In this document: piece by piece, positions 2,139 through 12,374 of the stretch
How positions within the stretch are numbered: position 1 is the stretch's first letter
How the letters are laid out: each line of letters begins with the position of its first letter
Origin: Thermodesulfobacteriota bacterium
GTDB taxonomy: Bacteria; Desulfobacterota; BSN033; WVXP01; G020346125
Length of the DNA stretch: 32,939 bases
Reading direction: 5' to 3'
NCBI GenBank assembly: GCA_030145085.1
Contig: JAQYWG010000009.1
Coordinates: 1-32,939 of the forward strand
Translations under genes and position numbers: made by a program
Notes under the pieces: model-generated
Seen by the model: the letters and a program-made list of their open reading frames with translations, nothing else
What the model was told of the DNA's origin: nothing
The model's database searches: none

Positions 2139-2420
2139 TTACACGTTGAGCCCTTCAGCCAAGACATCCCGGAGTGCGGCCTCGATACCTTCCAATACCC
2201 TATCAATATCTTCATCGGTATGGGCTGAGGAGATGCCGTGATGGTGCATCGTGTGGATGAAAATGCCGTGATTGAGACAGGCTTTATGGAGCCCCACAGG
2301 CAAGCCTGTGGTACCTCTTGTTACGCTCAGACGGGCGACATCCTGAGCAAAGAGCATGCACCCACGGCTTAAGCCTTGGTGCTCTGCGTCGAAGGATAGA
2401 ATAGATTCAACAGTTCCCAC
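2139..2420 (-). pseudogene. Remnant of a class III aminotransferase (C-terminus)
   Basis: The last 60 or so residues resemble the C-terminus of PLP-dependent class III aminotransferases of the glutamate-1-semialdehyde aminomutase type. A short hydrophobic stretch leads to HHHGISSAHTDEDIDRVLEG and a helical tail ending ALRDVLAEG. The S-x-A-H-T-x-E-D-I-D pattern is typical of that family's end. The PLP lysine and the cofactor domain are absent, and about 90 residues remain where the family has about 430. The sequence before residue 30 does not look like the family. This is most likely decayed DNA left by a deletion. The call rests on one short motif, so it is moderate. Confidence 0.5.
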
Positions 2421-2671
2421 TGGTTGTCAATGAGATCCTGGTAGTTTTTCAGCTCTTCCTTCTCCGCAACCGAGCCGAAGGGAAATGAGAAACGTGCTCC
2501 CTTCCCTTTTAATGTCAGTTGCTTTTCCATAATTTCATAGAATTTACCTGAGATCAAAAATAGGTGGAATTACTGATAGGTAACTAGCAATTCAATCAAT
2601 GCCTCAATCGTAAGCAAGCGAAAAGAGGGTTGTTGAATTTCAATACAGCCTAGATAAAGTGTTAGTTGTTT
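2421..2671. other. Intergenic, one unassigned short reading frame
   Basis: A minus-strand frame running from 2557 to 2369 could encode 62 residues beginning MISGKFYEIMEKQLTLKG. It overlaps the aminotransferase remnant in another frame and matches nothing I recognise. It may be more decayed coding sequence. No terminator or RNA gene was seen. Confidence 0.3.
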
Positions 2672-3969: not shown

Positions 3970-4401
3970 TCAGCCTTCCTTCAATTCGACGGAGACTAGT
4001 TCGATGTCGAAGATGAGGCTCTTCCCGGCCAACGGATGATTCGCGTCGATGACACCAAATTCCTCTTCGAGCTCCGCAACCCAGACCAGGATGACTTGCT
4101 CTCCGACCTTGGCCTGAAGGCGGTCTCCTACCTGGACCTCCTCGGGGAGTAATTTGCGAGGAATACGTTGCTCGAGACCAGGCGTTCGCACCCCGTAGGC
4201 TTCCTCGGCAGACACCACCACGGTCTTCGATTCCCCCTGTTGCATCCCTAAAACCGCCCGGGCAACCCCCGGAATCACCTCTTGGCCCCCCGCCGTAAAC
4301 TCTAAGGGGGCTCGACCTTCCGAGCTGTCGAAGGCGGTGCCATCCTCAAGCCGACCAGTGTAATGAATCTGTACCCGATCTCCCAAGTTTGTAACGCTCA
4401 T
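3970..4401 (-). CDS. slyD: SlyD-like FKBP-type peptidyl-prolyl isomerase
   Basis: The start is the ATG at 4401, preceded by GGAGAAGG at the right distance. A longer frame to 4428 lacks a good ribosome-binding site. About 143 residues show an FKBP fold: V-x-I-H-Y-T-G-R-L-E-D-G-T-x-F-D-S-S at the start, EVIPGVARAVLGM, and the C-terminal ANHPLAGKSLIFDIELVSV typical of SlyD. Between them, residues about 70-115 form the insert-in-flap chaperone domain. The histidine-rich, nickel-binding tail of E. coli SlyD is missing. It is a cytoplasmic prolyl isomerase and chaperone. It is the third gene of a short operon behind rpsU and an RRM protein, with 42 nt between it and the RRM gene. Confidence 0.93.
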   Translation of the reverse strand: MSVTNLGDRVQIHYTGRLEDGTAFDSSEGRAPLEFTAGGQEVIPGVARAVLGMQQGESKTVVVSAEEAYGVRTPGLEQRIPRKLLPEEVQVGDRLQAKVGEQVILVWVAELEEEFGVIDANHPLAGKSLIFDIELVSVELKEG

Positions 4402-4443
4402 ATAATTTTCCTTCTCCGTACCCCCCACTCTGTACTATCATGG

Positions 4444-4749
4444 CTAAAATCTTTCTCTCCTCCCGAAACCCGACCTGCCGATAAAGGTTTTTTGAGGCTC
4501 CTTCCGAGGCTTAGCTTCCTGGACGATAATCTTCCTTCCTGAAAGTTCGCCACCATTCAATTTCCTTATGGCCTCCTGGGCCTCTTCTTCAGTGGCCATT
4601 TCCACAAAACCAAATCCTCTCGAGTTCCCGGAGTATTTGTCCCTGATGATGTTGACTACGATACACTCACCGATTTCTCCAAAGTTCTTCTTGAGATCCT
4701 CTTCGGTCACTTCATAGGACAAATTACCAACGTATAATTTCTTAGACAT
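4444..4749 (-). CDS. RRM-domain RNA-binding protein
   Basis: The ATG at 4749 has a strong AGGAGG six bases upstream, so the six extra codons before it are excluded. The protein has 101 residues with one RNA recognition motif: RNP2 is LYVGNL (5-10) and RNP1 is RGFGFVEM (44-51). Helix EEDLKKNFGEIG and strand KLNGGELSGRKIIV complete the fold. A short basic tail (IGRSGFGRRERF) follows, as in cyanobacterial Rbp and deltaproteobacterial single-RRM proteins. These bind RNA and are often linked to cold or stress adaptation. The gene follows rpsU by 34 nt, which fits a co-transcribed translation-related operon. The last RNP1 position is Met rather than the usual aromatic residue. Confidence 0.95.
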   Translation of the reverse strand: MSKKLYVGNLSYEVTEEDLKKNFGEIGECIVVNIIRDKYSGNSRGFGFVEMATEEEAQEAIRKLNGGELSGRKIIVQEAKPRKEPQKTFIGRSGFGRRERF

Positions 4750-4783
4750 CTTTATCCTCCTGTTCATAAACCCTTACGCCGAT

Positions 4784-4975
4784 TTATAAAAACTGGCGTC
4801 CAGATTTGCTTCTTCTACGCCTGGCGGCAAGTCTTTTCCGTTTCTTTTTGACACTCGGTTTCTCTTAAAATCGTCGGTGTTTGAGTTCCTTGTGTACACC
4901 GTCCGATTGGATCTTCTTCTTAAGGAACCTAATAGCCCTTTCAATATTTCCCTTGACCTCAACACTGATGGACAT
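4784..4975 (-). pseudogene. rpsU: 30S ribosomal protein S21, interrupted by in-frame TAA
   Basis: From the ATG at 4975 (GAGGAG five bases upstream) the frame encodes 36 residues of a clear S21 N-terminus, ending KELKHRRF. It then meets TAA at 4867-4865. The same frame continues without shift into EKPSVKKKRKRLAARRRR and a basic tail, ending at a second TAA (4786-4784). In S21 proteins the interrupted position is normally an aromatic residue, usually Tyr, in the RR-F-Y-EKPS stretch, so TAT/TAC to TAA explains it in one change. S21 is a small-subunit protein that helps start translation. The gene heads an operon with the RRM and FKBP genes. Options are a nonsense mutation with another rpsU copy elsewhere, a sequencing error, a working truncated S21, or readthrough. 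Confidence 0.85.
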
Positions 4976-5087
4976 TACATCTCCTCTGTATCACCAGGGA
5001 TCTTTCCAAAGGCAGAACCCGGATGAAATGAAGATCTTTTCCCCATACCCATCGTTAGGTGATGGACTAATACCCTGATTAGATAAA

Positions 5088-5126
5088 AAAACCCCCTCAG
5101 GACCCTAGAAAGTCCCGAGGGGTTTT
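5088..5126 (-). terminator. Strong minus-strand terminator/attenuator in the rpsU leader
   Basis: A stem of about 14 bp is formed by AAAACCCC-C-TC-A-GGAC (5088-5103) and GTCC-C-GAGGGGTTTT (5112-5126), with loop CCTAGAAA. Read on the minus strand it ends in seven T. It lies about 110 nt upstream of rpsU and downstream of a candidate promoter, with no gene in front of it. That is the layout of a transcription attenuator. Confidence 0.7.
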
Positions 5127-5169
5127 AAACAATCAAATCGCGTAGGCCTTCTAGGAAGCTGGTATTTTT

Positions 5170-5198
5170 ATCTTAGGATAAATACATATCAATATCAA
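5170..5198 (-). promoter_or_regulatory. Candidate sigma-70 promoter of the rpsU operon
   Basis: On the minus strand there is TTGATA (5198-5193), a 17-nt spacer, then TAAGAT (5175-5170). Transcription would begin near 5163, run through the 5088-5126 hairpin, and reach rpsU at 4975. Confidence 0.5.
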
Positions 5199-10925: not shown

Positions 10926-12374
10926 ATGACAACCTCCACTCCCGGAAAACCGACCCGTTCAAAGGGATCACCCTACGATATCGCGGTAATAGGGGCTGGT
11001 CCTGGAGGGTATGTAGCAGCCATCAGGGCGGCCCAGATGGGGGCTAAAGTTCTCGTTATTGAAAAGGGTGAACTCGGGGGAACCTGTCTCAACCGGGGTT
11101 GCATCCCAACCAAGGCATTCTTATCGGATGTAAAGCCCTTCTACAAGATAAAGAAGGCTTCCCTCTACCGGGGCAAAGAACACCTCTCCCTCGACATGGA
11201 AAAGCTGGTGACCCGCAAGAATGAGGTGGTTGAGACCATGACCAAAGGGATAGCCACCCTTTTCAGCGATAACGGTGTTCAGTGGGCTCGGGGAATTGGA
11301 TCTTTCATGGATTCAAAAACCATCGGAGTCATCCGGGATGGTAAGAGAGAGACTTACAGGGCCAACAACATCATTATTGCCACGGGATCCAGAGCGGCGA
11401 ACATTCCCGACCTGAGCATTGACGGGGGCAATGTTCTCTCCAGTGACGAGATTCTGAATGTCCGGAAAATTCCCCGGGAAATGGTGATTATTGGCGGAGG
11501 AGTAATCGGGCTCGAGTTTGCCACCCTCTTCAACGCTCTGGGCACTCAGGTAACGATTGTAGAGATGCTTCCCACGATCCTTTCCACCGAGGACGACGAG
11601 GTCATCCGTGGACTCCACACGATTCTCGAGAGAGAGGGCATAACGATTCTGACCGGCACCAGGGTAATCGGGGCTTCATCAAAAGGGGGAAAGGTTGAGG
11701 TTCAGGTTCAGGAGAAATCAGGAGGAAAGGCTCGGATTGTGGCGGAAAAGGTCCTCGTAGCCGTGGGAAGAACCCCTCACACCGAGGGGCTAGACCTCGA
11801 AAGGATTGGCGTCAAGATGGAAGGACCATTCATCGCGGTTAACCCCAGGATGCAAACCAATGTGGATGGGGTATATGCCATCGGAGACGTGATTGGAAAA
11901 ATCATGTTGGCCCATGCTGCCTCGGCAGAGGGTGTTGTTGCTGTGGAGAACATCATGGAAGAATCGCGCGAGATAGACTACGGAAAAATTCCCACAGCCG
12001 TCTACACCTTTCCTGAGATAGCCTCGGTAGGGCTTAAGGAGAAAGAGGCCCGGGACAGTGGGCTGGACATTCGGGTTGGTAAATTTCCTTACCTCTATAG
12101 TGGAAAGGCCATGGCTATGGACGAGCCCGATGGATTCGTCAAGATCATTGCGGAGAGGGAATTGGGAGAGATTCTCGGAGTCCATATTCTCGGTGAGAAT
12201 GCTGCGGACCTCATTGGAGGCTGTGTTCTGGCAATGAGCCTTGAGGCTTCAGTGGAAGACCTGAGCGAGGCGGTGAAGGCACACCCTACCCTTTCCGAGA
12301 CGATCATGGAGGCAGCATTGGACTGGAGAAGGATGTCTATCCATCAACCCCCCAAAAAAGATCTCCCCCAATGA
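10926..12374 (+). CDS. lpdA: Dihydrolipoyl dehydrogenase (E3)
   Basis: This 482-residue flavoprotein has FAD motif IGAGPGGYVAAIRA (22-35) and the redox disulfide in GGTCLNRGCIPTKA (Cys54, Cys59). NAD motif IGGGVIGLEFATLF and the FAD-contact YAIGDVIG are also present, as is the C-terminal dyad in AHPTLSET. It reoxidises dihydrolipoate on E2 and makes NADH. A 15-residue extension precedes the flavin domain but there is no lipoyl domain. It lies 30 nt after E2, with GGTGGAG before the ATG, and completes the complex encoded by the four consecutive genes. It could also serve other lipoyl systems in the cell. Confidence 0.95.
   Translation: MTTSTPGKPTRSKGSPYDIAVIGAGPGGYVAAIRAAQMGAKVLVIEKGELGGTCLNRGCIPTKAFLSDVKPFYKIKKASLYRGKEHLSLDMEKLVTRKNEVVETMTKGIATLFSDNGVQWARGIGSFMDSKTIGVIRDGKRETYRANNIIIATGSRAANIPDLSIDGGNVLSSDEILNVRKIPREMVIIGGGVIGLEFATLFNALGTQVTIVEMLPTILSTEDDEVIRGLHTILEREGITILTGTRVIGASSKGGKVEVQVQEKSGGKARIVAEKVLVAVGRTPHTEGLDLERIGVKMEGPFIAVNPRMQTNVDGVYAIGDVIGKIMLAHAASAEGVVAVENIMEESREIDYGKIPTAVYTFPEIASVGLKEKEARDSGLDIRVGKFPYLYSGKAMAMDEPDGFVKIIAERELGEILGVHILGENAADLIGGCVLAMSLEASVEDLSEAVKAHPTLSETIMEAALDWRRMSIHQPPKKDLPQ

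Follow-up and report, generated by a model that had tools for sequence, protein, structure and literature searches.

A type B rpsU gene interrupted by an in-frame TAA, probably through recent nonsense mutation of an accessory S21 copy

The window analysed here is the whole stretch of 32,939 nucleotides from a Thermodesulfobacteriota bacterium (contig JAQYWG010000009.1). Its minus strand carries an rpsU gene whose frame, translated from the reverse complement, reads MSISVEVKGNIERAIRFLKKKIQSDGVHKELKHRRF*EKPSVKKKRKRLAARRRRSKSGRQFL* (asterisks mark stops). From the ATG at 4975-4973, 36 codons (4868 to 4975) encode residues 1-36 of S21; an in-frame TAA (4865 to 4867) then stands in place of a tyrosine codon that is conserved in relatives, and the 3' part (4784 to 4864), encoding EKPSVKKKRKRLAARRRRSKSGRQFL, runs for 26 codons and closes with the original TAA (4786-4784). 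The first-pass annotation had described two S21 halves in one frame, of 36 and 26 codons with a TAA between them; its coordinates are exact, and each half matches the family when searched alone, the 5' half over positions 2-35 of the 55 in Pfam Ribosomal_S21 (E 1.2e-7) and the 3' half over positions 37-54 (E 0.0029). Read through, the frame scores 53.8 bits against a curated cut-off of 27 (Pfam PF01165 Ribosomal_S21) and 53.1 bits against a cut-off of 28.95 (NCBIfam S21p, TIGR00030), a match far beyond the level of chance. A bS21 gene is expected to present an uninterrupted frame of about 55-70 codons, and this one meets its TAA after 36. With no in-frame ATG, GTG or TTG in the 3' half, translation is unlikely to restart past the stop.

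The genome of the window (3.14 Mb in 480 contigs, 99% complete, 3.9% estimated contamination) holds one further rpsU copy, a possibility that had been raised from the window alone. A profile search of the genome's contigs places it on another contig, at C255:8266-8424; it is canonical, without a stop, and scores 84.5 bits. Many relatives in the class carry such a pair, made up of a canonical type A S21, containing ..ENESFENALRRFKKQ.., and a divergent paralogue, type B, containing ..VEVKGNIERAI.. or ..VKVQNNQIENAI..; the interrupted gene is of type B. No type B copy was found in the congeners G002 and G003, whose genomes are both incomplete. This intact canonical rpsU elsewhere in the genome weakens the importance that the annotation had attached to the lesion through the part of S21 in translation initiation. 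Our phylum-wide S21 search is a list of the best-scoring matches and as such cannot serve as a fair base rate for interrupted S21 genes.

Directly downstream of rpsU on the minus strand is an intact gene for an RRM RNA-binding protein (4444 to 4767; Pfam RRM_1, E 3.1e-23), and beyond it lies an FKBP-type peptidyl-prolyl isomerase gene (3970 to 4428; Pfam FKBP_C, E 4.5e-22), likewise intact, as the annotation had proposed. The window thus has an S21 gene beside a gene for a single-RRM protein, the arrangement by which we define the RRM/S21 operon. The order rpsU-RRM is shared with the congener G001, the closest syntenic relative, in which type B rpsU is followed by the same RRM gene (83% identical), and the order RRM-rpsU is found in the genomes of family f3 and at three Nitrospirota-type loci (L068, L074, and L094). 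Upstream of the RRM gene in G003 (C169, L148, 70-330), behind a terminator-like hairpin, we read by eye an apparent decayed cold-shock-protein frame, AKGRVKSFKGDGFKSLGEGDGVEFDISQ. Elsewhere on the minus strand of the window, a 78-codon frame at 20526-20762 matches a short-chain dehydrogenase over its N-terminal part alone (Pfam adh_short, E 1.3e-6) and is probably a gene remnant. Two short overlapping frames at 2139-2557 (minus strand) gave no confident match in Pfam or NCBIfam; one of them contains HHHGISSAHTDEDIDRVLEGIEAAL, which we take to resemble the C-terminus of class III aminotransferases.

The gene is preceded by a Shine-Dalgarno sequence, GAGGAG (4981 to 4986, minus strand), 5 nt before the ATG. 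Folding of the leader predicts a strong terminator-like hairpin of 13 pairs with a T run (5086 to 5122, minus strand), of the form CCCC..GGGACTTT..AGG..TCC..GGGG then T, which is conserved in relatives. Upstream of the hairpin lies the promoter-like pair TTGATA - 17 nt - TAAGAT (5170 to 5198, minus strand). The ribosome-binding site, promoter and attenuator claimed at first reading all have a counterpart in the sequence, the promoter as a consensus match only and the attenuator as a terminator-like hairpin; three promoter-like pairs were found in the region against 2.0 expected in shuffles, and the placement of this one with respect to the hairpin is similar in relatives. The same hairpin precedes type B rpsU in G001, in G004 and in a Geobacter, and a related form precedes the RRM gene of the RRM-rpsU operons in family f3. 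A leader profile (R1) built on alignment A2, in effect largely a sequence profile, has a single match per genome in 17 of 40 relatives (14 of the 17 in family f3), the matches being near the type B rpsU genes, on the contigs that carry them. The RNAalifold structure of alignment A2 was set aside, as the hairpin arms were misaligned, and the hairpins were folded singly instead. In an Rfam search of the region no family matched, and no score came close to the gathering level. A terminator hairpin with a common core sequence, together with a promoter-like pair, recurs in the leader of the window (5086-5198, minus strand) and at L033, L034, L037, L041, L044, L045, L047, and L081. We suggest that this leader, standing before type B rpsU or RRM-rpsU, may be an undescribed attenuator of the S21/RRM operon.

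The codon at the stop was compared without gaps across 39 distinct type B sequences, that of the window and 38 others from the class and from public genomes. The 38 others have tyrosine (37) or histidine (1) and never a stop, so that the TAA is derived and, as far as is visible, private to the window genome; the aromatic residue that the annotation had expected here is thus tyrosine in nearly all of them. TAT, one of the two codons expected in relatives, is indeed what stands at this position in the two nearest relatives having a type B gene, the congener G001, whose syntenic rpsU is intact with the remaining frame open, and G004, a genome of the same order as that of the window, whose type B frame is also open. 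The step from TAT to TAA needs one T to A difference. A disabling change private to one lineage, with a functional relative elsewhere, is the pattern of a recent pseudogene. The codon region had no match in a scan of viral contigs. An interrupted S21 in G013 (C98) was considered as a parallel case and rejected, being a canonical type A gene with its frame shifted at the break (KRGHYEKTQH*EKEK). In that genome the second half of type A S21 (L032, near 12131-12265 of the contig) is apparently frameshifted and type B is intact, the reverse of the window, whether by a real change or by an assembly error.

Constraint on the two halves was gauged by counting changes on the window branch with G004 as outgroup. 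The sites are few and the counts approximate: the 3' half has about 4.5 amino-acid and 3.5 silent changes, the 5' half 2 of each. A 3' half free of constraint along the entire branch would be expected to show about 13 amino-acid changes (Poisson probability 0.004 for 4 or fewer and 0.011 for 5 or fewer). Since the observed changes fall far below this expectation, the stop is either young or not effective; the 3' half is otherwise still well conserved, with no sign of long neutral decay. The description of the frame as fully conserved does not hold, however. Thirteen residues past the stop (+13), a glutamate that all 38 other sequences retain is alanine in the window (GAG to GCC, a two-base change), and no conserved column of the 5' half is broken. 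Loss of this glutamate is a change of the kind expected once the 3' half is untranslated and hints that the stop is effective; it is a hint rather than proof, because 4 of the 39 type B sequences depart from one or more conserved columns in the 3' half. For relaxed constraint past the lesion, this one residue gives a hint among few changes overall. The pattern in the 3' half is better matched by a young nonsense mutation followed by slight decay than by readthrough.

The main rival of a recent loss is a sequence error, in which a wrong consensus base in a metagenome-like assembly, or the allele of a minor strain, hides a TAT or TAC from which the organism makes full S21. One T to A difference would explain the stop, the 3' half still reads as good S21 sequence, and the contig comes from an assembly of 480 contigs with 3.9% estimated contamination. 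Yet a single miscall would leave the private change of glutamate to alanine, another departure from the relatives, unexplained, and none of the 64 ABC_tran matches in the window genome, which stood in for a genome-wide count of interrupted genes, contains an in-frame stop, so that the assembly looks clean in other respects and such errors are rare. We judge an artefact to be unlikely, though probable enough to be taken seriously. Should the base be real, the 36-residue N-terminal product might itself function, for example as a partial subunit or as a competitor of full S21, and everything up to the stop, from the leader and the ribosome-binding site to the 5' half, is intact and conserved; a stop of recent origin, however, accounts for an intact 5' half without any function, and no such truncation occurs in the 38 type B relatives, which makes a working short form improbable.

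We give very little credence to readthrough or recoding of the TAA, which would yield short and full-length S21 side by side, even though the two halves share one frame and amino-acid changes in the 3' half are few. Programmed recoding should leave a stop kept in relatives ahead of a conserved downstream frame, and the main evidence against it is that no relative keeps the stop (0 of 38). The private loss of glutamate after the stop also tells against it, and TAA followed by G is not known to be leaky. No suppressor tRNA with a TTA anticodon is present among the detected tRNAs of the genome, an incomplete set in which, for example, no tRNA-Tyr or tRNA-Trp is listed. It is very improbable, too, that the TAA is both real and selected, so that the RRM/S21 operon would yield, under its conserved leader hairpin, the 36-residue form or short and full forms in regulated proportion; were the TAA kept by selection, the cell would tune its ribosome composition through a stop codon. 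Among the three options that the first-pass annotation had left side by side, a single-base nonsense change comes out likeliest, given the TAT of the nearest relatives and the lack of a stop in all 38, and readthrough or recoding finds no support, the stop being private and no TTA tRNA appearing in the incomplete tRNA set.

We consider it probable that a recent nonsense change has struck an accessory S21 gene and was tolerated since the canonical copy is intact. The starting point is a genome with two S21 genes, the canonical rpsU on C255 alongside a divergent accessory gene of type B that makes up one unit with the RRM gene behind the conserved leader and its terminator hairpin, in which a recent substitution in the window lineage would have turned the tyrosine codon of the accessory copy into TAA. 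Translation would then end after 36 residues, and the fragment, lacking the basic C-terminal half of S21, would presumably not assemble into ribosomes; the canonical copy would supply S21, making the loss of type B tolerable. The downstream RRM and FKBP genes are still encoded, although translational coupling to the RRM gene may have been lost. The accessory copy most likely yields half a protein of no use, and the intact main copy does the work. The sequences themselves establish the stop in the assembly, the lack of it in relatives, the second, intact copy and the conservation of the surroundings; we infer that the organism itself carries this base, that the gene product has no activity, and that type B S21 has an accessory, perhaps cold-related, role.

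More than one S21 gene per genome is also known in Francisella tularensis, which has three bS21 homologues of which no single one is essential (PMC9578407); the window differs in that its copy is interrupted by a stop and that its case is known from genes alone. Frameshift and deletion variants of rpsU in Listeria monocytogenes are viable (PMC4424878, PMC11006974), so that loss of S21 is tolerated there as well, but these variants were selected in the laboratory, whereas the loss in the window sits in a natural genome, in a paralogue, with intact S21 elsewhere. The pairing of genes has parallels in the cold-induced rbpA-rpsU operon of Anabaena variabilis (Sato 1994, 1997, as cited in PMC4424878), where the S21 gene accompanies that of a single-RRM RNA-binding protein, and in Sinorhizobium meliloti, where rpsU lies in the cspA operon (as mentioned in PMC4424878) and is thus paired with a cold-shock gene. 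In contrast to these operons, rpsU is broken in the window, and it precedes the RRM gene there and in G001 (in family f3 the RRM gene comes first). By analogy, the S21/RRM operon of the window may be cold-regulated.

Neither a recent gene loss nor a sequence error would be surprising, and the probable loss would be a fairly ordinary further example of a redundant ribosomal-protein paralogue falling out of use. It carries the caution that an interrupted rpsU need not mean that S21 has been lost. Beyond the single lesion, the case points to an accessory S21/RRM operon across a bacterial class, with a conserved leader hairpin and a candidate role in ribosome composition.
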